From: Planctomycetota bacterium
Lineage (GTDB): Bacteria; Planctomycetota; Phycisphaerae; WQYP01
Length of the DNA: 64,000 nucleotides
Direction: 5' to 3'
Assembly (NCBI GenBank): GCA_021790385.1
Contig: JAJYDW010000009.1
Location: 19,390-83,389, forward strand
Shown here: positions 31,258 through 53,346 of the stretch, piece after piece
How the letters are laid out: the number at the start of each line of letters is the position of its first letter
Position numbering within the stretch: position 1 is the first letter of the stretch
Made by a program: the position numbers and the translations under genes
Notes under the pieces: generated by a model
The model's input: the letters and a program-made list of their open reading frames with translations, nothing else
Told to the model about the DNA's origin: nothing
Database searches by the model: none

Positions 31258-32433
31258 ATGAATGACCGTGAACGCTTTAACGCGACCATGCACTACCAAC
31301 CGCGGGATCGCAGTCCCATCTGCGATTTTGGGTTCTGGCCGGAAACCATCGACGGCTGGCACCGCCAGGGTTTGCCCGTCTGGGTTACCGGCGGACACGA
31401 TACCACGCACACTGATAAATTCTTCGGCATGGATTTGTACAACGGCGGCCCCTCGCCAAACGTGTGTCTTTACCCCGCATTTCCGGCAACGGTGCTGGAA
31501 GATCGCGGTGATCATGAAGTGGTGCAGCAGGGCGACGGCGTGCGCGTGTTGCGTAAAAAATACATGGGTTCCATTCCCACCCACCTGGGCCATCTACTGG
31601 TGGACCGCGAAAGCTGGAGCACGCACTACAAACCTAAACTGAACCCGGCCACCCCCGGCAGATTCCCCAGCGGACCGGACTTGGATCAGGCAGTTAAAAT
31701 TTGGACCGACCCGCACCGCTCCACCCCCTGTGTGGGCTGGGGAGGCAGTTTGTTTGGATGGCTGCGCGACTGGATGGGGATGGAAAATATTGCCCTGGTT
31801 CCGTATGACGACCCGGCGTGGTTTGAAGAAATGGTAACCACCCTGGCAGATGTTATTGTGGCGATGCTGGGCCGGGTGTTCGCCACCGGGGCCAAGCTGG
31901 ACGCCATCAGTATGTGGGAGGACATGTGTTTCAATTCCGGACCACTGTTAAGCCCGCATTTTTTCAAAAAGTACCTGGTACCGCAGTACCGGCGCATTAC
32001 GGATCTGGCCCGCAGGCACGGCGTGGATGTGATATGGGTGGATTGCGACGGGAAAATTGATGATTTGCTGCCTTTATGGCTGGAAGCCGGCGTGAACTGC
32101 ATGTTTCCGCTGGAAGTAGGCACCTGGCAGGCGGACCCCGTGCAATATCGAAAGCACTACGGCCGCGAACTTTTAATGATGGGCGGATTTGACAAACACA
32201 TTCTGTCCCGTAGCAAGAAAGATATTGAACGCGAGGTGCATAGGCTAACACCCCTGGTGGAAGAGGGTGGCTTTATCCCCTTTGCCGACCACCGGGTGCC
32301 GCCGGATGTACCACTGGAAAATTATATGTATTACCTTGAGCAGGCGCGGCGATTCTGGGGAAAAAATCATCCCAGCCTCAAGCCCATAGGGAAGCTTGAT
32401 TTGATCAAAGAAAGCGTATCGCCGCAAAAATGA
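31258..32433 (+). CDS. Uroporphyrinogen decarboxylase (URO-D) family protein, likely corrinoid methyltransferase-type
   Basis: MNDRERFNATMHYQPRDRSPICDFGFWPE...; DVIWVDCDGKIDDLLPLWLEAGVNCMFPLEVGTW; GGFDKHILSRSKKDIEREV. Confidence 0.85.
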   Translation: MNDRERFNATMHYQPRDRSPICDFGFWPETIDGWHRQGLPVWVTGGHDTTHTDKFFGMDLYNGGPSPNVCLYPAFPATVLEDRGDHEVVQQGDGVRVLRKKYMGSIPTHLGHLLVDRESWSTHYKPKLNPATPGRFPSGPDLDQAVKIWTDPHRSTPCVGWGGSLFGWLRDWMGMENIALVPYDDPAWFEEMVTTLADVIVAMLGRVFATGAKLDAISMWEDMCFNSGPLLSPHFFKKYLVPQYRRITDLARRHGVDVIWVDCDGKIDDLLPLWLEAGVNCMFPLEVGTWQADPVQYRKHYGRELLMMGGFDKHILSRSKKDIEREVHRLTPLVEEGGFIPFADHRVPPDVPLENYMYYLEQARRFWGKNHPSLKPIGKLDLIKESVSPQK

Positions 32434-32482
32434 ACCTATCGACCGACAGGGCTGGTGGTCTGGCGACGAAACTGCCCGTATT

Positions 32483-34423
32483 GTGCCAAGCAGGCAAGAA
32501 TTGATGAATCATCCACCTGTTTCATTGCAAATTGAAATCACCACTGGTACGCGTACTGTTTTGCTGGATCAGACCCAGCAAATGCTTCCGCTGACGGAAG
32601 TACTGCGTCATATAGGGTTGCCGCTGAATACTCGCTGCGGCCAGCGCGGAAAATGCGACGGCTGTCTGATAGATTTGCTGCGGGGAAAGTTGATCCACCT
32701 GGTAGATGGCGAAATAATTAACGCCGGGAATCCGTTATTATCCGTGCGGGCTTGCGAATATCGCGTGACGGATCCGCAGAACTCCCCGCCCGAATTACGG
32801 ATTTGTGTGCCGGCCAGGTCCCTGCTGGCTTATGAGCCGCAGGTGCTCAAGGATTACCGCATCAGTGTGCCGTTTTCCATTTTTCCGTTGTGGCAGCAGA
32901 TTCCGGTGCAGCGGCAAGAGCCTGATGAGCACAGCGCCACGGCTGACGGGGCTGCCCACTATCTGAAACAATCTTTGGGTTTGCGCTCTACACCGATTGT
33001 TACCCCCGCAGCCCTGCAACAGTGGAAACAGAACCGGGGAGTCTCCAAGGTTTGGGCTGTCCTGCAATATCAACCATCCGGCTGGTCGATTACCGCATTT
33101 GAACAAGAGCCTGTCAGGCAGCCATTGGGAGCGGCCATCGATATCGGTACCACCACAGTGGTGGCACTGCTGGTGGATTTGAGCACAGGCCAGGTGCTGG
33201 CACAGGCGGCAAATTTTAACGGGCAGATTAACCTGGCTGATGATGTGGTTACACGTATATCTTTATGCGGGCAAGATCCAACCATGATTGCACGCATGCA
33301 CGAGGCTGTATGTGAGGACACGATTGTGCCGTTGCTGCGGGAAACATTGGAAATCGCCCGGGTTCCAGCGGACACATCACTGCAGGCGGTGGCGGTGGCG
33401 GGTAATACCACCATGCAGCATTTGTTTGCTGGTGCGGATCCTTCAGGACTGGGCACGGTGCCGTTTACGCCCAAATTCCTGGAGTATCTACATTTAAACG
33501 GCCCCAGAGTATTTACCGTCGCCAAGAACGGGTCTGCACCGGCCCAAGCCGTTCATCTTCTGCCATCACCGGCCGCTTATGTGGGAGCCGATCTGGCCGC
33601 TGGTATTCTGGCCTCCGGGCTAATTTACGATGATGGCCCATCGCTGCTCATTGATATTGGCACCAATGGAGAAATCATCTTCAAAAAGCAGGATTTGCTC
33701 CTGGGCTGCGCCACCGCCGCCGGCCCAGCCTTCGAAGGTGCCGGGCTGGCCTGCGGCATGCGAGCCGGTGATGGAGCTATTGCCTACGTACACCTGAAGA
33801 CCGATCCGCTGCAAATTCAAACCCGGCGGATTGGTGAAAATGGGTATGCCGCTGGATTGTGCGGCTCGGCTTATGTGGATTTTCTGGCGGAAGCCCGCCG
33901 CACCGGCCTGATCGATACGATGGGCCGCTTTGATCTTCAAGCCGTGCCGGACGCCCAGGCCCACATAATTGCCTGGCGGCCACGTCGCAGTTCAGTGGAA
34001 GACCGGGCGATGGTGTTGGCTTATGGCCAAGCCAAACGCCCCATTGTTGTGGCGGAAGCGGATATTGCCGTGCTCTTATCATCAAAAGCCGCGATTGCCG
34101 CAGGAATTATGATTCTAATGAAGCGGGCCGAGGTGACGCCGGCGCAGATTAAACGCGTATATTTGGCAGGCGGTTTTGGAACTTACATGATTGCCGCCAA
34201 TGCCATCGCCTGCGGACTCTTGCCGGGCTTTACCCCAGAGCAAATAGTCCCCGTCGGCAATACCTCCCTGGCGGGAGCGTACCTTTCGCTGGTAGATGCT
34301 TCCGCCATGGATGAAATCCGCCGCCTCGCCCGGTGTGTCCAGACCCTTGAATTGAATCTGGACCCCGAATTTGAGACCACGTATATCGATCAACTGGCTC
34401 TGCCGGAGGTCCGACCAACATAA
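32483..34423 (+). CDS. 2Fe-2S ferredoxin + ASKHA/DUF4445 protein, RACo-like reductive activator of corrinoid proteins
   Basis: LNTRCGQRGKCDGCLIDL 2Fe-2S motif; AAIDIGTTTVVALLVDLSTGQVLAQAANFNGQ; LIDIGTNGEIIF; AGGFGTYM. Confidence 0.88.
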   Translation: MPSRQELMNHPPVSLQIEITTGTRTVLLDQTQQMLPLTEVLRHIGLPLNTRCGQRGKCDGCLIDLLRGKLIHLVDGEIINAGNPLLSVRACEYRVTDPQNSPPELRICVPARSLLAYEPQVLKDYRISVPFSIFPLWQQIPVQRQEPDEHSATADGAAHYLKQSLGLRSTPIVTPAALQQWKQNRGVSKVWAVLQYQPSGWSITAFEQEPVRQPLGAAIDIGTTTVVALLVDLSTGQVLAQAANFNGQINLADDVVTRISLCGQDPTMIARMHEAVCEDTIVPLLRETLEIARVPADTSLQAVAVAGNTTMQHLFAGADPSGLGTVPFTPKFLEYLHLNGPRVFTVAKNGSAPAQAVHLLPSPAAYVGADLAAGILASGLIYDDGPSLLIDIGTNGEIIFKKQDLLLGCATAAGPAFEGAGLACGMRAGDGAIAYVHLKTDPLQIQTRRIGENGYAAGLCGSAYVDFLAEARRTGLIDTMGRFDLQAVPDAQAHIIAWRPRRSSVEDRAMVLAYGQAKRPIVVAEADIAVLLSSKAAIAAGIMILMKRAEVTPAQIKRVYLAGGFGTYMIAANAIACGLLPGFTPEQIVPVGNTSLAGAYLSLVDASAMDEIRRLARCVQTLELNLDPEFETTYIDQLALPEVRPT

Positions 34424-38152: not shown

Positions 38153-38816
38153 AGAGGGTCTCCTTAATCTGAATACCGGGCACAGCACTCCTGGAGCCGC
38201 GGTCGGTTCATCACGGTACGTAATACCCGCCTCAACCAAAGCCAGGGCGGAACCTCTCACGCACTTACTTACTTCTAGAGTTAAGCCCAGATGGTGTCAA
38301 TATATAATGACTCCGCCCCCGCCGGTCTGTTTTCAGGACTGGGCGGCATTGATCACCGCGGCAACACGGCCTGCCGTTCACAAACAACGTCTGGAGAGAA
38401 CTCTGTGCGCCTGCCCCTGGCGCCGCTGAGTTCAGTTGGTCTTCGGAGCTTGGCGCGCAACCGGCGAGGCTCTCGGGACGGCGTTTTCGCGAGGCCAATA
38501 CCCTTATCAACATTAGCGATTTGCAACATCAACCACTCGTATTAGATATACGTATTAAGACCTTGATGCCACCGGATTTTCCGGCAGATTCGCGGCTGTG
38601 TCCCACCTGGCAACCATTCCTCCCCCGCGATCATCTCACGTCTTCACCAGTTCCTGCAAACAGCCGCCAGTTAGGAAATTTACCTATTATCAATAAAGGT
38701 AAGACCCTACATCACATCCAGTGATTATCCTATAGGCATACCCCCGATGTTTCGGCGATACTTACTTTTGTGCAGTGGCCAACAGCAGCACGATGCAGCA
38801 GTGGCCAGGCAGGTGT

Positions 38817-38847
38817 AATTGCGAGTTACTTGCATAGTTTCGCAATT
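38817..38847. promoter_or_regulatory. Candidate ArsR-type operator: AATTGCGA-N15-TCGCAATT
   Basis: Perfect 8-bp arms at 38817-38824 and 38840-38847, about 33 nt upstream of the regulator start at 38880. Confidence 0.5.
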
Positions 38848-38879
38848 AAATACAATCGCAACTGAAGATGGAGTTGCTG

Positions 38880-39341
38880 ATGTTAACCCGGATGAATGAT
38901 GAACTGTGCGAAGTCATGTGCGAGTTCTTCTCGCTGCTGGCCCATCCGACCAGAATCCGGATGTTCTGCACTCTTCAGCATGGCCCCCAAACAGTTTCAG
39001 CACTGGCGGAACAATCACAAATTTCCTTGCCCAATGCGTCTCAACATCTGCGCGTTATGCGTCAAAGCGGAGCCTTGACCCATGAGAAGCGAGGCCAGCA
39101 GGTGTTTTATCAAATTGCTGATCCCCGATTTATCCAGGCCGCCGAAATCATTCGGGATACCTTGCTGGAAAAAGTCCAGGGTCATGCACGGCGGACGGCT
39201 CGTGGCACTGTATACCGCAAGAACCCGCGGCCACAGGCGCAATTGGCCCGGCCAGCCACTCTCTCCATGGTCACCAAAGCACACAATCAACAGAACCATA
39301 ACAAGGTTATACCTCTATTTAAGAAGGAGTTTTCATTATGA
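38880..39341 (+). CDS. ArsR family transcriptional regulator
   Basis: FFSLLAHPTRIRMFCTLQHGPQTVSALAEQSQISLPNASQHLRVMRQSGALTHEKRGQQVFYQIADPRF: wHTH of ArsR. GGAG before ATG 38880. Confidence 0.9.
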   Translation: MLTRMNDELCEVMCEFFSLLAHPTRIRMFCTLQHGPQTVSALAEQSQISLPNASQHLRVMRQSGALTHEKRGQQVFYQIADPRFIQAAEIIRDTLLEKVQGHARRTARGTVYRKNPRPQAQLARPATLSMVTKAHNQQNHNKVIPLFKKEFSL

Positions 39342-39592
39342 CCACCGAAGAATTAACCGCCATAACACCGGACAAGGTGATTGATGCCAGAGGCACAGCC
39401 TGCCCAGGCCCGCTGCTGGAAGCCAAAAAAGGTATCGGCGCGGTGAAAGTAAGCCAGATCATTGAAATCAAATCCAATGATCAAGGCTCACGCAAAGACA
39501 TCAGTGCATGGTCCGGCAAAATCGGCCATGAATTTCTCGGATTTATTGAAGCGGATGGCCACGACCGGCTGTTTGTACGCCGCAAAAAATAA
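39338..39592 (+). CDS. TusA/SirA-like sulfurtransferase
   Basis: VIDARGTACPGPLLEAKKGIGAVKVSQIIEIKSNDQGSRKDISAWSGKIGHEFLG: CPGP motif. Confidence 0.93.
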   Translation: MTTEELTAITPDKVIDARGTACPGPLLEAKKGIGAVKVSQIIEIKSNDQGSRKDISAWSGKIGHEFLGFIEADGHDRLFVRRKK

Positions 39593-39633
39593 CCGCCGAA
39601 TCTGTTGAAATACAGGCAATATCGAGGTGCTGT

Positions 39634-40122
39634 ATGGTTGCCACCTTTACTCCTAAAATTCTGGTTTTAGCCACGGAACGATGCGCCTATCCCGGCGCCG
39701 ATGCCGTAGGCAAAGCCCATCTGGAATACGGTTCCAACGTCAGTGTGCTGCGTGTGCCCTCACCGGTACTGTTTCCGATGGATTTTTATCTGCGCTGCTA
39801 TACGCGGGGAATAGACGGCATACTCATCGCCGCCTGCGGGTCTGACTGCCCGTATCGTGGTGCTTATGATCGCCTGGCCGCGCGCATTGACAAACTCACT
39901 GCCGTGATGAAGCGTGAGGGACTGGAAATTCAGAGAATTCGCCTGACTGCCATTTGTACGGTGTGTATCAAGGCATATCTCAAGGAAGTTGGTGAACTCA
40001 ATGATAAATTGCTCAAGCTGGGACCGGTTGATCGTGCCAAGGCCGCCGCCATTGAGCAAATATGCCGGCGGCAACTCAGACCCGCGGCTGCGGTTGCGGC
40101 GGTCGAACCCGTCAACGCATGA
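39634..40122 (+). CDS. MvhD-like hydrogenase iron-sulfur (delta) subunit
   Basis: ILVLATERCAYPGADAVGKAHLEYGSNVSVLRVPSPVLFPMDFYLRCYTRGIDGILIAACGSDCPYRGAYDR. Confidence 0.88.
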   Translation: MVATFTPKILVLATERCAYPGADAVGKAHLEYGSNVSVLRVPSPVLFPMDFYLRCYTRGIDGILIAACGSDCPYRGAYDRLAARIDKLTAVMKREGLEIQRIRLTAICTVCIKAYLKEVGELNDKLLKLGPVDRAKAAAIEQICRRQLRPAAAVAAVEPVNA

Positions 40123-40128
40123 TGAAAG

Positions 40129-41547
40129 GTGGATGTCATGGTAGCAATGGAGAAAAAGATTCATACGGATGTACTGGTCGTTGGCGGCGGCATCGCCGGC
40201 ATCCAATCCGCCCTGGACATGGCTGATCAGGGATTTAAGGTCATCATCGTCGAGCGGCAATCCAGCATCGGCGGCCAGATGATAGCCTTAAGCAAAGTCT
40301 TTCCCACGTTGGATTGCGCCAGTTGCATCACCACACCCAAAATGTCGGCGGCGGCTCATCATCCCAATATTCAATTGATGGTCAATACCGAAGTGAACCA
40401 GATTGAAACAGTCGGTGCTGGACAGCAGGTTACTGTGACCCGCAAGGCGACCTATGTGGACCCGGAAAAGTGTATCGGCTGCAGGCTATGCGAGTATGCC
40501 TGCGAAATCGAATATCCCGACCCTTTTGAACTGGGATTGGGGGCCATACGGGCTATTGCCATCCCCTTTACCAACGCCATTCCTCAAAAAGCGGTGCTGA
40601 ACCCGGATTATTGCACCACCTGCGGACTATGCGCCAGGGCCTGCCCTACTGACGCCATCGATTATGCCCAGGAGCCGCAAACCTTTACAATTCATGCCGA
40701 TACGGTCATCGTGGCTTCCGGTTTTGCGCTTAACAGTCTGAATGTAAAACCTCAATACAATGCGGCACAAAGTAAAAATGTCATTTCACCCTTGACAATG
40801 GAGCGGCTGCTGGCACCGCACGCCCCATACGGCCGGGTGCTGAGACCTTCGGACGGCAAAATTCCCACCTCCATCGCATTTGTTCAGTGCGCCGGATCAC
40901 GCGATGAAACCATTGGCGTCCCCTATTGTTCGCGCGTTTGCTGCATGTATGCCATCAAGCAAGCCATGCTGCTTTCCGGCGCATTGCCGATGGCCGATAT
41001 CACCATTTACTACATGGATATCCGGGCTTTTGGTAAAGGTTACGAGCAGTTCTACCAGAATGCCAAGGCCATGGGAATTAACTTTGTGCGCGGCAAAGTT
41101 GCACGTATTGAATCCGCTCCGAACGATGATATGCTGCTGCACGTTGAACTGACCGAAGAAGCAGTTGATCCCTGCCGCCAGCAGCGCCATGACCTGGTCG
41201 TCCTGGCCCAGGGCATGCTGCCGCAGTGGAATGTCTCGGAGCATTCATCGCTGCAGTGCGGATCAGACGGCTTTGTGGCCTCACCCGATGTGATCAATCC
41301 AAGCGCCACCAACCTGCCGGGTATTTTCTCCGCCGGTACCGCATCAGGCCCTAAAGATATCGTTGACACGATTACCGAATCCGGAGCAGCCGCCATGGCC
41401 GCCCGCCGTTATTTACATCAACAAAAAGGCGATAAAAACCCGGACATCCCAACCGATACGGCGGCGGTTCACCTTGTTCAGCGAGGCGCGGGAGAAATCC
41501 GTGACGGCCAAACCGTCCAAGCCGGGCTTGGAAAGGAGATCCGATGA
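40129..41547 (+). CDS. HdrA-like FAD/4Fe-4S protein 1 (QmoA-like)
   Basis: VLVVGGGIAGIQSALDMADQGFKVIIVERQSSIGGQM, FPTLDCASCITTPKM, CIGCRLCEYAC and CTTCGLCARACPTDAI. A better start may be ATG 40138. Confidence 0.92.
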   Translation: MDVMVAMEKKIHTDVLVVGGGIAGIQSALDMADQGFKVIIVERQSSIGGQMIALSKVFPTLDCASCITTPKMSAAAHHPNIQLMVNTEVNQIETVGAGQQVTVTRKATYVDPEKCIGCRLCEYACEIEYPDPFELGLGAIRAIAIPFTNAIPQKAVLNPDYCTTCGLCARACPTDAIDYAQEPQTFTIHADTVIVASGFALNSLNVKPQYNAAQSKNVISPLTMERLLAPHAPYGRVLRPSDGKIPTSIAFVQCAGSRDETIGVPYCSRVCCMYAIKQAMLLSGALPMADITIYYMDIRAFGKGYEQFYQNAKAMGINFVRGKVARIESAPNDDMLLHVELTEEAVDPCRQQRHDLVVLAQGMLPQWNVSEHSSLQCGSDGFVASPDVINPSATNLPGIFSAGTASGPKDIVDTITESGAAAMAARRYLHQQKGDKNPDIPTDTAAVHLVQRGAGEIRDGQTVQAGLGKEIR

Positions 41548-43400
41548 ATACGATCAACAACAGCCAACATGACCACCAGGAGCCTCGCATCGGCGTTTAT
41601 ATCTGCCGCTGCGGTGGAAATATTTCCGACGTCGTAGATGTTGATCGCGTCGCTGAGGTGTCCCGGCATATTCCCGGCGTGGTGGTGGCCAAGGTTCACA
41701 CTTTTTGCTGCAGTGACCCCGGCCAAAACACCATCAGCCAGGATATTCAGGCAGAAAAGCTCGACCGGGTGGTGGTGGCATCCTGCTCGCCATTTCTCCA
41801 TGAGTTGACTTTTCGCGGAGCGGTGCAGCGAGGCGGTCTGAATCCGTACCTCTACGAGCATGCGAACATTCGTGAGCAAGGTTCCTGGGCGCATAAACAT
41901 GATCCGGCGGGAGCCACCGCCAAATCCATTCGCATGATTGCCGCGGCTGTGGGCAAATTGCAATATTCCACCCCACTGGATCAAATTCGGCTTCCCAATC
42001 ATCGTAAAGCACTGGTCATCGGCGGAGGCGTTGCCGGCATGAAGGTAGCCGCCGACCTGGCCAGGCGCGGCATTCCGGTGCTGCTGGTGGAATCCAGCGG
42101 TCGTCTCGGCGGACGGTTAAATCAATGGAATCGGGTGTTTCCAACGGATACCCCCGCCGGCCAACTGGTTACTAAACTCCTGGCCCAACTGGATGCAAAC
42201 CCGCTGGTGGAAATACTGTTGAATTGCAAAGTCACCGCGGTAACCGGTTTCGTCGGCAGCTTCCAGGTAACCATTGAAGGACCGCTTGGGCCGTCTGGAG
42301 CTATGACCTCCACACAAACCACCATCGGCGCTATTGTCATGGCCACCGGCTTTAAACCCTACGTTCCCGACGATGGTGAATTTCTCTACAAAAAAGACCC
42401 GGGCGTAGTAACAATGCCCGAATTCATTGACCTGATGCGCGGCCAGCAGACTGACACCGGCGAACTGGTTTACAAAGGCAGAACCATACGCAGCGTCGCA
42501 TTTCTGCACTGCGTCGGCAGCCGGCAAATTGATGGCGTGCATACACCGCGGGCCGATGGAAAAATCAATACTTATTGCTCCCGTGTCTGCTGTACGACCA
42601 CGTTGCAGCAGGCCCTGGCAGCCAAAGAGCGTTTTCCTTCTCTACAGGTGTACGACCTGCATCAGGATATTCGCACCTATGGCCGCGGGCACGAAGATTA
42701 TTACGTACGGGCCGGCAAGGCTGGAGTCGTGTTTTTCCGTTATCACGGCGACGAAATACCGCGTGTCGCGCTTGCGGACGGCAAACGCCCTGCTGAACCA
42801 TCATTGCACATCACTTTTAAGGATTACCTCACCTGGGGTGAAGAGTTAACCCTGGATGTGGATATGCTGGTACTGGCCGTCGGCTTAATGGCCGGCGACA
42901 TTCCCGATCTGATCAATATGTTCAAACTCCCGGTCGGGGAAGATCGCTTCATCCAGGAAATTCACCCCAAGCTGCGACCGGTCGAAATATCCGTTAATGG
43001 CGTACTGTTGGCCGGAACCGTGCAGGGACCGATGAATATTGAAGAAACGCTTAACGCCGCCGGAGCGGCCGCGGTCAAGGCCAGCGCCATGTTCCTGAAA
43101 GATGTGGTGGAATTAAATCCCTATGTAGCCCAGGTGGAAACCGATCTTTGCCAGGGCAGTGGAGCCTGTGTTACCCAATGCGAATATGACGGAGCCATCG
43201 TCATGGTTGAAACCCAGGTGAACGGCAAGACCGTGCGGCAAGCCAAAGTCAACCCGGGCTTGTGTGTAGGTTGCGGGGCCTGTGTGGCGGTATGCCCCAC
43301 CCGGGCGATTAACCTTAACGGCTGGCGACTGGATCAATACGACGCCATGGTTGACGGTCTGACTGCGGATATTCCAGCGGTGGCAGCAGCCACAAGTTGA
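41544..43400 (+). CDS. HdrA-like FAD/4Fe-4S protein 2 (QmoB/HdrA-like)
   Basis: GVYICRCGGNISDVVD, ALVIGGGVAGMKVAADLARRGIPVLLVESSGRLGGRL, CVGCGACVAVCPTRAI. 4-nt overlap with the previous ORF. Confidence 0.92.
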   Translation: MNTINNSQHDHQEPRIGVYICRCGGNISDVVDVDRVAEVSRHIPGVVVAKVHTFCCSDPGQNTISQDIQAEKLDRVVVASCSPFLHELTFRGAVQRGGLNPYLYEHANIREQGSWAHKHDPAGATAKSIRMIAAAVGKLQYSTPLDQIRLPNHRKALVIGGGVAGMKVAADLARRGIPVLLVESSGRLGGRLNQWNRVFPTDTPAGQLVTKLLAQLDANPLVEILLNCKVTAVTGFVGSFQVTIEGPLGPSGAMTSTQTTIGAIVMATGFKPYVPDDGEFLYKKDPGVVTMPEFIDLMRGQQTDTGELVYKGRTIRSVAFLHCVGSRQIDGVHTPRADGKINTYCSRVCCTTTLQQALAAKERFPSLQVYDLHQDIRTYGRGHEDYYVRAGKAGVVFFRYHGDEIPRVALADGKRPAEPSLHITFKDYLTWGEELTLDVDMLVLAVGLMAGDIPDLINMFKLPVGEDRFIQEIHPKLRPVEISVNGVLLAGTVQGPMNIEETLNAAGAAAVKASAMFLKDVVELNPYVAQVETDLCQGSGACVTQCEYDGAIVMVETQVNGKTVRQAKVNPGLCVGCGACVAVCPTRAINLNGWRLDQYDAMVDGLTADIPAVAAATS

Positions 43401-43422
43401 TTTTCACACAGGAGATTTTGTC

Positions 43423-43779
43423 ATGTCTGCCAAAACACTCACTGCAGAACAGAAACAGTCGCTGGCTGCGCTGCGCAAGCGCATGGGTGGTATCAGCGAG
43501 GAAAAACGCGCCCGGCTCAAGGAACAAACAACCATTCGAAAGGCCATTCGCGAAGCGCTGGCCAAAGGCCCTGTTACCGTGCCGGAACTGGCATCCGCCA
43601 CTCAATTTCCGGCGCAGCAGGTTTTCTGGCATCTCATGGGCATGAGAAAGTACGGGCAGGTGCGCGAAGTCGGCGATGCGGACCCATACGTTCGCTACGG
43701 CCTGGTTGAAAGCGATAAACCGACAGTTCCGGAGAAAAAATCCTTCCAAGGCACAGCAGCACCGAGTTCTGCTCATTAA
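43423..43779 (+). CDS. Small winged-helix-like protein embedded in the Hdr/Qmo-like cluster
   Basis: TTIRKAIREALAKGPVTVPELASATQFPAQQVFWHLMGMRKYGQVREVGDADPYVRYGLV. RBS AGGAG; co-directional with tight gaps. Confidence 0.75.
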   Translation: MSAKTLTAEQKQSLAALRKRMGGISEEKRARLKEQTTIRKAIREALAKGPVTVPELASATQFPAQQVFWHLMGMRKYGQVREVGDADPYVRYGLVESDKPTVPEKKSFQGTAAPSSAH

Positions 43780-43803
43780 TATGGTATTTCAGGAGGTCCA
43801 GCC

Positions 43804-44955
43804 ATGACCACACAACTCCATAAGACACTCCACGAAGAGATGCATTTCTTCGGCGGCAAAGACGTGGATTTATGCATGAATTGCGGAACCTGCACCGTCA
43901 TTTGTCCCCTGGCACGGGACGAAGGCGGCACGTTTCCAAGACGCATCATCCGCCTGATTCAGACCGGCCAAAAGCGACTGTTGGTTAAAAGCCTTGATCC
44001 ATGGATGTGTTATTATTGCGGAGATTGCTCGGAAAACTGCCCGCGCCAGGCCAATCCCGCCGAAACCATGATGGCATCGCGCCGATATCTGACCTCGCAA
44101 TATGATTGGACCGGTCTGGCCCGACTATTTTATAAATCCGCTATGATGGAAATTCTGACCATTGTGCTGGTGGGCCTTTTCGTCACCGGCCTGTTTGTGT
44201 GGTTTCATGGCCCCATGGTGCTTTCCTTCCCCGTTCAGCTCAACACCTTTGCCCCGGTCAAGTGGGTTGAATTGGGTGACTGGATCATGGCGGGCACACT
44301 TTCATTTTTCCTGCTGACCAATGCCGCACGCATGGTTTGGAACACGCTGGGCGGAAAACAAATGTTTGGCATTTCCTCCCTGATATACTTCAAGGCCGTA
44401 CCGGTCTTTTTTGATCATATGTTTACCCAGCGGCGATCACGCCAATGTGGATCCACCCGCAGCCGGTCCTTCTGGCTCAAACACCTGCTGCTGGTCAGCG
44501 GTTACCTGAGCATGCTGGTATTGGTGCTGATACTGTTGCGCTGGTTCCAGACCGACCGAATTTATCCGATCTACAATCCCCAGCGACTGTGGGGTTATTA
44601 CGCCACCCTGGCCCTTTTATACCCCACCGGAGCATTCCTAATTTCCCGCTGGCGCAGAAAGGAACCCATTCATTTTTTCAGTGAAGCCAGTGACTGGATA
44701 TTTCTGGTCATGCTGTTTTTGACTGCACTTACCGGCATCATGGTCAGCCTGGCCCGAGTCAATGGATTCCCCATGACCACGTATGTGATATACGTTATTC
44801 ATCTCTCCATCGCGGTGCCCATGCTGGTGGTGGAGGTGCCATTTAGCAAATGGTCCCATTTGTTATATCGCCCCTTGGCGATGTATCTGGTCAGCGTCAA
44901 AAAGGCCGCGGCGGCGGTTTCACTCAAAACACAAACGGAGGCCGCCACTGCCTGA
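43804..44955 (+). CDS. QmoC-like protein: HdrC-type 4Fe-4S domain fused to cytochrome b-like membrane domain
   Basis: CMNCGTCTVICPLARDEGGTFPRRIIRLIQTGQKRLL...CYYCGDCSENCPRQANPAETMMASRRY, followed by several TM helices. Confidence 0.88.
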   Translation: MTTQLHKTLHEEMHFFGGKDVDLCMNCGTCTVICPLARDEGGTFPRRIIRLIQTGQKRLLVKSLDPWMCYYCGDCSENCPRQANPAETMMASRRYLTSQYDWTGLARLFYKSAMMEILTIVLVGLFVTGLFVWFHGPMVLSFPVQLNTFAPVKWVELGDWIMAGTLSFFLLTNAARMVWNTLGGKQMFGISSLIYFKAVPVFFDHMFTQRRSRQCGSTRSRSFWLKHLLLVSGYLSMLVLVLILLRWFQTDRIYPIYNPQRLWGYYATLALLYPTGAFLISRWRRKEPIHFFSEASDWIFLVMLFLTALTGIMVSLARVNGFPMTTYVIYVIHLSIAVPMLVVEVPFSKWSHLLYRPLAMYLVSVKKAAAAVSLKTQTEAATA

Positions 44956-45015
44956 TTGCGGCCAGAATGATTTGGCATGCCATGCGTATAATTTTTGATT
45001 TGAAAGGAGCTTCTT

Positions 45016-45573
45016 ATGACTGTTCTGGAAACATCTGCATGGGAGGAAAAGCTTTCCGCCCTAACCACTCGTGTGGAATCTCTGGAAAAGTCCGCGGGAA
45101 ATGACCACCTGGCCCTGGGCGTGATGAGCGGAAATCTGGATACCACCATGGCGGCGTTTATTATCGCCCTGGGGGCTACTGCTTATGATGTGCAAGTGGA
45201 TATGTTCTTTACATTCTGGGCTATTGCCGCACTGCGCGATCCTAAAAAGGCTGTACGCAAGGGATTTCTGGACAAAATGTTCGGACTGATGTTACCGCGC
45301 GGAGCCAGGGCTTTGCCACTCTCCAAACTGCAAATGGCAGGGGTTGGCCCCAAAATGATTCGCGCGGTCATGCAGCAGCGCGGCGTAAAATCGCTGGAAG
45401 GCTTAATAAAGGATGCCGGGGAACTCGGGGTTCGCATTCATATATGCGAGATGTCCATGAATGTCATGGGCTTCAAACCTGAAGAAATGATTGATTATCC
45501 CAATTTGGACTATGTTGGGGTGGCCACCTTTATTAAATTAATCGGTGAAGCCAAACAGGCATTTTTCCTGTAA
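45016..45573 (+). CDS. DsrE/DsrF-like family protein (DsrE2/DsrE3 type)
   Basis: MFFTFWAIAALRDPKK...DKMFGLMLPRGARALPLSKLQMAGVGPKMIRAVMQQRGVKSLEGLIKDAGELGVRIHICEMSMNVMGF. Confidence 0.88.
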   Translation: MTVLETSAWEEKLSALTTRVESLEKSAGNDHLALGVMSGNLDTTMAAFIIALGATAYDVQVDMFFTFWAIAALRDPKKAVRKGFLDKMFGLMLPRGARALPLSKLQMAGVGPKMIRAVMQQRGVKSLEGLIKDAGELGVRIHICEMSMNVMGFKPEEMIDYPNLDYVGVATFIKLIGEAKQAFFL

Positions 45574-45725
45574 ACTATAGTCACTAGGCCATTGGCCCTG
45601 GAGCTAATGGCGTGGTATCGCCGCTGTTTCGTGATTCGCGCGGCGGCGGGAACGAGGAGGTACCGATCGGCTTTTTCTGATTGCCTGACAGTTTCGGGCA
45701 GTGCGGCCTAAGAGGATCTGATTTT

Positions 45726-46733
45726 ATGGATATGACCACCAATTATCTCGGGATGCAACTTGTAAATCCGTTAGTTGTCGGGTCTTCGCCACTGTCTGCC
45801 GACCTGGACATGGTCAAGCGTCTGGAGGACGCTGGTGCGGCTGCGGTCGTCATGCACTCTCTTTTTGAAGAGCAAATTCGCCGTGATAGCCGGTCTTCCG
45901 TTTACTACCGGGAAATGTACGCCGATAGCTATAGGGAAGAACCCGGCCTGATGCCCACCCCGGAAGAATTTCTGCTTGGCCCTGATGAGTATCTTGAACA
46001 GATCCGCCGCATTCGCCAAGCGGTTAAAATTCCCGTCATTGCTTCCATCAACGGCATCACCGCCGGTGGCTGGGCGGAATATGCCAAATCCATTGTTCAG
46101 GCCGGTGCCCATGCCATTGAGTTAAATGCCTACCGCCTGGCCACCGAGCTAACCGTTACCGGCGATCAAATGGAAGAGGATACCATAGCGGCCATTAAGT
46201 CCGTGCGCCTGCAGGTCAACATTCCCATGGCCGTTAAACTCTGTCCGTTTTATTCTTCATTGCCCAATTTTGCCCTGAAATTAGCCGACATGGGAATTCA
46301 AGGCCTGGTTCTTTTTAACCGCTTTTATCAACCAGATATTGATCCGGAAACACGAACCGTACTGCCCCGCGTTATCATCTCAGATTCCAATGAACTGCTG
46401 CTGCGGCTGCGCTGGATTGCCATTCTGGGTGGCCGCCTGGATGTGGATCTGGCCTGTTCCGGTGGCGTACATACCCATCTGGATGTGATTAAAGCCATCA
46501 TGGCCGGGGCCAATATTACGCAAATGGTTTCCGCTTTGCTTAAGCATGGCCCGACACATTTAACTCGCATACGGGCGGATATGGAACAATGGCTGCAGAC
46601 TCACGGATACCCATCCATCCGTAAGTTGCACCGCTCTATGCAGGGTGTTGAAGGTGTGGATCCTCAAGCCCTCGAACGTGCCAACTACATGCACGTGCTG
46701 CAAAGCTGGCATTACAGCAGATCGGACCGATAG
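45726..46733 (+). CDS. Dihydroorotate dehydrogenase-like protein
   Basis: TTNYLGMQLVNPLVVGSSPLSADLDMVKRLEDAGAAAVVMHSLFEEQI; PVIASINGITAGGWAEYAKSIVQAGAHAIELN; SGGVHTHLDVIKAIMAGAN. Confidence 0.88.
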   Translation: MDMTTNYLGMQLVNPLVVGSSPLSADLDMVKRLEDAGAAAVVMHSLFEEQIRRDSRSSVYYREMYADSYREEPGLMPTPEEFLLGPDEYLEQIRRIRQAVKIPVIASINGITAGGWAEYAKSIVQAGAHAIELNAYRLATELTVTGDQMEEDTIAAIKSVRLQVNIPMAVKLCPFYSSLPNFALKLADMGIQGLVLFNRFYQPDIDPETRTVLPRVIISDSNELLLRLRWIAILGGRLDVDLACSGGVHTHLDVIKAIMAGANITQMVSALLKHGPTHLTRIRADMEQWLQTHGYPSIRKLHRSMQGVEGVDPQALERANYMHVLQSWHYSRSDR

Positions 46734-52062: not shown

Positions 52063-53346
52063 TCAGAATCGATACCCAATCTGAAAACCAAATGAATTCT
52101 CCGCCAATGTCGCACTGGTGGCGGCTAATCCGGGTGCGAGCGGCCCGCCATTGATCGTATTACTGAATGCGTGCTTGTACGCCTCGGTCAAGCTCCAGCC
52201 CATGCCCAAAGTCTGCGTCGCACCCACCGTAATGGTGTTTTGAACCACCGCCGGCAGCAGAAGGTTGGATGCGGTATCGGAGGATCCAATGGGATCTGTT
52301 CCGTATGAATAGCCGCCGCGGATGGCCAGCCACTTCGTTAATTGGTATTGAGTGCCGATGTTGAAAACCCATTCGTCATGCCAATGTGTGCGCATCACTA
52401 CTTGATTGGTGCCCACCCATGGACCATGCAGCGTAAGGGTATTAAGGGTGCTACTCCAGTTAATCCACTGACCTTCCAGGCTGATCGTCCAACGCCTGGT
52501 CGGATGAAAGGCTGCACCGAGCGAGATCTGCTGAGGATAATTAAGTGTCGTGCTGTATTGGCCGGCGTTGCCCTGCACGCCGTTAAAATTTTCTGTGGTT
52601 TCCTGCCAGGTCAGGGGAGTGAAAAAAGTTGGCGTTCTATACATCAATCCCACCGTTACATATTTGTTGATTTTGTGCAGCACCCCCAGCGACACGCCGG
52701 CTCCAAATGCCGTGGACGGGCTCGCCAAATTAATGCCCACGCCATTAAAAGTCTGCTGCATGGACATCTGTTCCAGGGAGATATTCACGCCCAGACCGAC
52801 CGCCCAATCCGGGGTCGGTTTCCACGCCAGTGCCGGCGTCATCGAAAAGTATTGAATATCGCTGTAAACCTGCACCGTTCCCATGGGGGTGTTGGGTTGC
52901 AGATAATTGACGCCCATACCGGAAGTGGCAAACATGCCGCCGCCGAAATATAAATTCGGACCGAACGCCGGAGCAGACCATCCCACCGACGGAATTCCAT
53001 AAAGATTGCTGTGACTGCCCACCTGACCAAAACCGAAGTTGCTGCTTCTGGTGGGGTTGAACCATTCCGCCGAAAAGGCGGCCTGCGGCGGAATAAACGC
53101 CAATCCCGCGGGATTGGTAATTGCGGTCATCGGATCACCGGGATCCGCCACCACAGCGCCGGCCATCCCGATTTCATATTGTCCGATCCCGATGAGTTGA
53201 TAGCCATCCGTAGCCCGGGCCGCCGGTGCCAACGCCCACAGCGACAGCGACGCCGCCAACGCCAGTGGTATAAATTGGCCAGCCAATCGAACCATAGAAT
53301 TGGATTCTGCTCTCACCTGATTGCCAGGTAGTTGAACGTTTTTCAT
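52063..53346 (-). CDS. OmpP1/FadL/TodX family outer membrane protein
   Basis: GYQLIGIGQYEIGMAGAVVADPGDPMTAITNPAGLAFIPPQAAFSAEWFNP; beta-rich, C-terminal ...FGFQIGYRF. Confidence 0.9.
   Translation of the reverse strand: MKNVQLPGNQVRAESNSMVRLAGQFIPLALAASLSLWALAPAARATDGYQLIGIGQYEIGMAGAVVADPGDPMTAITNPAGLAFIPPQAAFSAEWFNPTRSSNFGFGQVGSHSNLYGIPSVGWSAPAFGPNLYFGGGMFATSGMGVNYLQPNTPMGTVQVYSDIQYFSMTPALAWKPTPDWAVGLGVNISLEQMSMQQTFNGVGINLASPSTAFGAGVSLGVLHKINKYVTVGLMYRTPTFFTPLTWQETTENFNGVQGNAGQYSTTLNYPQQISLGAAFHPTRRWTISLEGQWINWSSTLNTLTLHGPWVGTNQVVMRTHWHDEWVFNIGTQYQLTKWLAIRGGYSYGTDPIGSSDTASNLLLPAVVQNTITVGATQTLGMGWSLTEAYKHAFSNTINGGPLAPGLAATSATLAENSFGFQIGYRF

Follow-up and report, generated by a model that had tools for sequence, protein, structure and literature searches.

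A 64,000-nucleotide window of a planctomycete contig (JAJYDW010000009.1, assembly GCA_021790385.1) contains an operon in the order ArsR-TusA-MvhD-HdrA-HdrA-wHTH-QmoC-DsrE3 (wHTH being a winged-helix protein), the eight genes of which are co-directional (+) and closely spaced over positions 38868-45573, with intergenic gaps of -4 to 60 bp. We propose that this operon probably, though far from certainly, encodes a Qmo-like membrane complex that would be independent of adenosine 5'-phosphosulfate (APS) reductase and would handle sulfur held by TusA, more likely in the oxidative direction, by means of a dithiol in MvhD. A wider claim, which we consider plausible and put forward with more reserve, is that the operon and its counterparts in other genomes (together referred to as the module) form a class of their own, spread over several phyla, of quinone-coupled sulfane-sulfur oxidoreductases, in which MvhD, once an Fe-S subunit at which partners dock, would have turned into a CxxC dithiol enzyme acting directly on TusA-bound sulfur and which would sustain a sulfur-based energy metabolism without Dsr, Apr and HdrB. 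The eight-gene cluster had been delineated in an earlier note on this stretch. Pfam and NCBIfam profiles and the recurrence of the cluster in relatives bear it out, and only the start given there (38880) has to be moved, as it lies some 12 bp downstream of the beginning of the ArsR frame at 38868.

The CxxC motif of TusA-linked MvhDs

In the complexes of methanogens, MvhD is the entry point through which the electrons of partner enzymes reach HdrA. Canonical MvhDs have, in the alignment, four conserved cysteines, which we infer to be the ligands of a [2Fe-2S] cluster, and an S-A-x-E-G motif. The MvhD/FlpD protein of the operon (39634..40122, +; PF02662, 68 bits) is a free subunit that matches the solved MvhD, and it carries C108-T-V-C111 (39955..39966, +), i.e. 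CxxC in the place of the canonical SxxE, as a candidate dithiol site. The same replacement is found in all TusA-linked MvhDs of the alignment (45/45, a number that includes near-duplicates, being the same loci in two collections, and therefore does not stand for 45 independent cases), and in every one of them the four-cysteine set is incomplete as well. The CxxC is missing from all 36 MvhD domains that go with hydrogenase, AprAB or other Hdr genes. In the L052/L055-type MvhDs the CxxC alone is kept among the six positions that were checked.

Because the loci in this comparison had been found through QmoC, it was repeated by means of a FlpD family search in 20 genomes. In the loci read back, the canonical MvhD paralogues within the same genomes keep a motif of the S-A-x-E-G type and have no TusA within about 1.5 kb on either side. 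The CxxC MvhDs recovered by this search have an adjacent TusA in all loci read back except one (L133), where less than 750 bp of contig lies upstream and the genome of which holds another copy of the CxxC type that does come with TusA. The position could be tested in the 31 loci that have more than 600 bp upstream of MvhD; in 30 of them the adjacent upstream gene is TusA.

The predicted fold of the module protein is still that of MvhD, with a template-modelling (TM) score of up to 0.90 to the solved structures (5odc/8rvu), and the CxxC sits just before the helix 112-129. The protein has the fold and the family score of FlpD and lacks the four-cysteine/SxxE set of canonical MvhD. The TusA-linked CxxC MvhD is a new sequence signature. 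No description of it, nor of the gene set TusA-MvhD-HdrA-HdrA-QmoC, was found in the main texts of the open-access literature (absence there is not proof). Nor did the papers searched yield a characterised version of the cluster in close relatives, a finding by which the earlier note had allowed its proposal to be overturned.

Conservation of the gene cluster

Synteny of the eight-gene block extends through the genus and the wider Planctomycetota family, and a scan with one genome per species recovered the block also in Chloroflexota, Bacteroidota and Krumholzibacteriota. With dozens of genomes from several phyla sharing it, this synteny is far beyond chance. In Chloroflexota the gene order is ArsR-TusA-MvhD-HdrA-HdrA-wHTH-QmoC, after which genes of the DsrE family, another TusA and a YeeE/YedE importer often come, and the modules of Bacteroidota mostly start with DsrE-TusA.

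The source genome (95% complete) has a single TusA and a single MvhD, both of which are in the module. Genome-wide profile searches gave no match to aprA, dsrA or sat in this genome. No HdrB was found in it either, its only CCG-domain proteins being, as judged from their neighbourhoods, a LutA-type protein whose locus resembles lutABC and a glycolate-oxidase-like protein of 1031 aa. The earlier statement that aprAB, sat, dsrAB and HdrB are lacking from the window can thus be extended to the whole genome for aprA, dsrA, sat and HdrB. Among 24 module genomes of several phyla (two of them with a truncated block), AprA was found in none and DsrA in one, the latter through a match with an in-frame stop, versus two of two canonical controls for both proteins. 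The close relatives of the host are Planctomycetota/Phycisphaerales metagenome-assembled genomes; the hosts in general are metagenome-assembled genomes, and the absence calls depend on their completeness, which is not given for the genomes that were reached through loci.

Two family members (G011 and G018) do have AprA alongside the module. As G011 carries a separate, contiguous aprB-aprA-qmoA-qmoB(+MvhD)-qmoC locus (L029), the module constitutes a paralogous system, distinct from the partner of APS reductase. The apr-linked Qmo loci among the 80 loci have a fused MvhD and no TusA.

Some further gene sets were seen within the same family. Divergent DsrAB-like pairs that score below the dsrA cut-off are present in G015, G020, G025 and G026, with no aprA over the cut-off. 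G011 has a second HdrA_a-wHTH-QmoC set without HdrA_b, TusA and MvhD (L027:2349-10278), which adjoins MinD/Mrp-type ATPases and a CoA-disulfide-reductase-like flavoprotein, and 2-oxoacid:ferredoxin oxidoreductase-like genes lie directly 3' of its module (L031:12120-15260); the neighbours of both sets were named by eye.

Subunit architecture and phylogeny

By alignment to the solved HdrA, the QmoA-like HdrA_a (40129..41547, +; HdrA2, 462 bits) consists of a flavin adenine dinucleotide (FAD) domain with an inserted two-cluster ferredoxin domain and nothing else, and the QmoB-like HdrA_b (41544..43400, +; HdrA2, 474 bits), which has no fused MvhD, of an N-terminal domain, an FAD domain without the ferredoxin insert and C-terminal ferredoxins. 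The tree supports both assignments. Together with the free MvhD, the two flavoproteins make up one full HdrA/MvhD domain set. In QmoA/QmoB the domain set is likewise split over two proteins, but MvhD is not a separate gene there as it is in the module. The QmoC-like protein (43804..44955, +; NF038018, 180 bits at an equivalog cut-off of 300) is a fusion of an HdrC domain, with two [4Fe-4S] motifs, to a membrane cytochrome b-like domain. Its eight [4Fe-4S] cysteines and three histidines are invariant or nearly so in the module alignment, and the iron-sulfur (Fe-S) and histidine residues that are kept are those expected for contact with quinone. The sulfur carriers of the operon are TusA (39338..39592, +; PF01206, 62 bits; CPGP motif at 39401-39412) and a soluble sulfur-transfer protein of the DsrE2/E3 family (45016..45573, +; DrsE_2, PF13686, 150 bits), which has a conserved cysteine in HICEMSM. 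Some of the open reading frame boundaries given here were set mechanically.

In the trees, which stem from quick searches, the HdrA_a proteins of the module and those of a hydrogenase-linked set form one clade (37 rows; Shimodaira-Hasegawa-like approximate likelihood-ratio test, SH-aLRT, 100), and the branch that separates canonical QmoA/QmoB from it has an SH-aLRT of 100 as well. The sub-clades of HdrA_b match those of HdrA_a. The TusA-linked HdrA_a rows do not form one clade in the best tree, and a single clade is not rejected (approximately unbiased (AU) test, p 0.14). Four loci inside the HdrA_a clade have no TusA (L071, L082, L084 and L087). In three of these, L082, L084 and L087, HdrA_b/MvhD and HdrA_a are separated by [NiFe] hydrogenase genes, which in L082 are of the Vhu/Mvh type, and a similar HdrA/MvhD-hydrogenase-QmoC set is present in the more distant L106 (Archaeoglobaceae). 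The four hydrogenase-linked loci have the same HdrA_b, HdrA_a and QmoC platform as the module, with the L082-type proteins inside the HdrA_a clade, but they have hydrogenase genes instead of TusA and their MvhD keeps the four cysteines and the SxxE. Our reading is that a common HdrA-HdrA-QmoC platform may take exchangeable partners, namely AprAB, a hydrogenase or TusA.

Considered by themselves, these sets of HdrA/MvhD, [NiFe] hydrogenase and QmoC (L082, L084, L087 and L106, from Acidobacteriota/Archaeoglobaceae) look like a quinone-linked cytoplasmic hydrogenase.

Since the AprAB- and hydrogenase-linked relatives each use a separate enzyme, the catalytic partner of the module might also be encoded elsewhere, TusA and DsrE then merely delivering sulfur to it. 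We hold this to be quite improbable: the neighbourhoods that were read show no recurrent gene for an enzyme of this kind, and the change from SxxE to CxxC at the partner-facing MvhD points to the loss of an Fe-S enzyme as the partner.

Comparison with known Qmo and Hdr systems

With the canonical (type I) QmoABC the module shares the logic of QmoA, QmoB and QmoC homologues, the quinone-facing HdrC-cytochrome b subunit and the distribution of the HdrA domains over two flavoproteins; its QmoC has the domain order and the cofactor residues of the canonical protein. This likeness, which extends to MvhD, would be expected of an ordinary QmoABC that serves APS reductase. The module differs from such a complex in its free CxxC MvhD, its TusA/DsrE partners, its separate HdrA clades, outside that of QmoA/QmoB, and its winged-helix protein; it lacks the fusion of MvhD to QmoB and a genomic link to aprAB, and the score of its QmoC stays below the cut-off. 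Together with the absence of aprA from the source genome and from the 24 module genomes, and with the separate apr-qmo locus of G011, this makes an ordinary QmoABC hardly credible. On the genome-wide aprA, dsrA and sat searches, the HdrA tree and the synteny, it was rejected, and it is refuted unless aprA was missed in so many incomplete assemblies. A firm placement of the genes in canonical QmoABC with aprAB elsewhere in the genome, the other finding that the earlier note had named against itself, was not obtained from the HdrA phylogeny and the aprA search.

The nearest recognised relative is the type II Qmo (PMC10504309), and the class is therefore not wholly unseen. In the main text of that paper, type II Qmo is described as having QmoAB nearer to HdrA than those of type I and a QmoC, and as occurring in genomes with or without Apr/Dsr; its function is left open and no link to TusA is given there. 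The QmoAB homologues of the module agree with the trait of being nearer to HdrA by profiles, alignment and tree, and, to judge from the published description, the module is likely a type II Qmo.

In the sHdr system, too, Hdr-like proteins share one cluster with TusA and carriers of the DsrE type (PMC6067878), and regulation of sulfur oxidation there by an ArsR-type protein is known (PMC12423496). Yet sHdr uses HdrB-type CCG-domain subunits and LbpA, whereas the module has no HdrB and instead has a QmoC membrane subunit and MvhD. We rejected the sHdr reading on the lack of HdrB and on the neighbourhoods of the CCG matches, which are lutABC-like and glycolate-oxidase-like; LbpA was not recognised in the neighbourhoods read, where no dedicated search for it was made. 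Taken together, the lack of aprA and of HdrB, the unfused MvhD, the HdrAs outside QmoA/QmoB and the separate apr-qmo locus lend good support to the earlier view that the cluster matches neither textbook version.

Of the other systems, HdrABC-MvhADG requires HdrB and the MvhAG hydrogenase, but the genome has no HdrB, and the window genes read include none for a hydrogenase. The YTD cluster (PMC12998232) brings together the genes of YedE/YeeE, TusA and DsrE, a trio that is also seen beside some of the Chloroflexota modules. However, the description there lists no Hdr/Qmo genes, and the source genome has no match to YeeE (PF04143). Oxidation of sulfane sulfur by Qmo/Hdr has been discussed for an organism with Dsr/Apr (PMC4911364).

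Proposed route and direction

In the complex that we propose, TusA would be loaded directly or via the DsrE2/E3 protein, which would load or unload it, and would dock at MvhD, by analogy with the docking site of AprAB or hydrogenase in complexes homologous to this one. An exchange between the CxxC dithiol of MvhD and the persulfide or thiol of TusA would follow, and electrons would pass by way of the FAD and Fe-S centres of HdrA_a/HdrA_b to HdrC/QmoC and on to the quinone pool. The favoured direction in the host would be the oxidation of sulfide or a thiol to sulfane sulfur on TusA with reduction of quinone, because a haem-copper oxidase (COX1) is present in the source genome (which also gave one weak molybdopterin match) and because electrons would have to go energetically uphill from quinol to a persulfide. 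In the anaerobic Chloroflexota and Bacteroidota the complex may work in the other direction.

HdrA-type flavoproteins are capable of bifurcation. The complex could conceivably also work reductively, with quinol as the electron donor for the conversion to sulfide of persulfide carried by TusA or DsrE, perhaps aided by flavin-based bifurcation at the two HdrAs, in the service of cytoplasmic sulfur respiration or the detoxification of sulfane sulfur. Most of the Chloroflexota/Bacteroidota hosts are from frequently anoxic groups and sites, and YeeE importers adjoin some of the modules, which would suit such a reductive version. Nevertheless, we consider it rather unlikely in view of the uphill step from quinol alone, the haem-copper oxidase and the fact that the operon has no gene for an electron-supplying partner.

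Several observations weigh against the proposed route. A TusA-specific cysteine was sought in HdrA_a, HdrA_b and QmoC and none was found, nearly all of their conserved cysteines being common to the hydrogenase-linked relatives, so that the entire sulfur step rests on MvhD. In the Planctomycetota MvhDs five cysteines remain, and the CxxC could with the others bind a rearranged Fe-S cluster. Neither YeeE nor any sulfite-handling enzyme was found in the source genome, which leaves the origin and the destination of the sulfur without a candidate. Finally, the direction is not fixed by the data, and the chemistry, like the direction, is inferred from sequence. The TusA/DsrE/YeeE association and the CxxC of MvhD are in keeping with the quinone-linked persulfide complex suggested earlier, the activity of which is a prediction as well.

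The lack of downstream sulfite or sulfate enzymes in the searches for aprA, dsrA and sat would, like the one TusA of the source genome, also agree with a supply or repair system, i.e. with a redox upkeep of TusA or other cytoplasmic thiols that would serve tRNA thiolation and cofactor synthesis and would not yield energy. This is improbable in our view, as so large a membrane quinone complex with its own ArsR and DsrE would be unusual for housekeeping, and as a second TusA and YeeE stand beside the module in some Chloroflexota.

If the proposed sulfane-sulfur route is true, many genomes of Planctomycetota, Chloroflexota and Bacteroidota would use protein-bound sulfur through a quinone-linked pathway, although genomes such as these, without dsr and apr, would be scored as having no dissimilatory sulfur metabolism. 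It would also give a role to some, if not all, of the type II Qmo genes, and would make HdrA-HdrA-QmoC a modular redox platform that plugs into APS reductase, a hydrogenase or a sulfur carrier. The putative two-cysteine switch resides in one small subunit and would be open to simple mutagenesis, and the pair of CxxC-MvhD and TusA could serve as a ready genome marker for the module.

Regulatory and neighbouring genes

The first gene of the operon encodes an ArsR/SmtB-type regulator (38868..39341, +; NF033788, 76 bits; the BigR model, at 50 bits, is below its cut-off). It has Cys14, Cys18 and Cys34, with partial conservation of the cysteines among relatives, and is a possible sulfur-responsive repressor, which would release the operon from repression in the presence of reactive sulfur. 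By position Cys34 fits a sensor of the SqrR/sHdrR type; the two-cysteine pair of the characterised sensors (PMC12423496) is not clearly present. Imperfect inverted repeats lie 5' of arsR, at about 38680-38867 (+), namely TTACCTAT..AAAGGTAA and TTACTTGC..GCAATTAA, the first of which is largely kept in three congeners, and these are a possible ArsR operator.

The winged-helix protein (43423..43779, +) is kept between HdrA_b and QmoC in several phyla. Its predicted model (predicted local distance difference test, pLDDT, 83) resembles SmtB, and the structure comparison gave no further clue as to a regulatory versus a structural role. A gene for a dihydroorotate-dehydrogenase-like flavoprotein (45681..46733, +; NF005741, 404 bits) follows the operon as a possible ninth gene; it lies 3' of the module in some family members, and the linkage is loose.

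A transporter of the FadL/TodX type, located in the outer membrane, recurs near the module in several lineages of Planctomycetota at varying positions, once between ArsR and TusA (window 52066-53346, -; L031:3634-4998; L038:417-1964; L041:3538-4788). It possibly imports a hydrophobic substrate; titles and abstracts of the literature held nothing useful on a connection of FadL with sulfur. Elsewhere in the window (31258-34420, +), a methyltransferase-like gene of the URO-D family adjoins the gene of a corrinoid activation protein (AcsV/RamA-like), a pair that suggests methyl transfer by way of a corrinoid in a planctomycete that also has a haem-copper oxidase.

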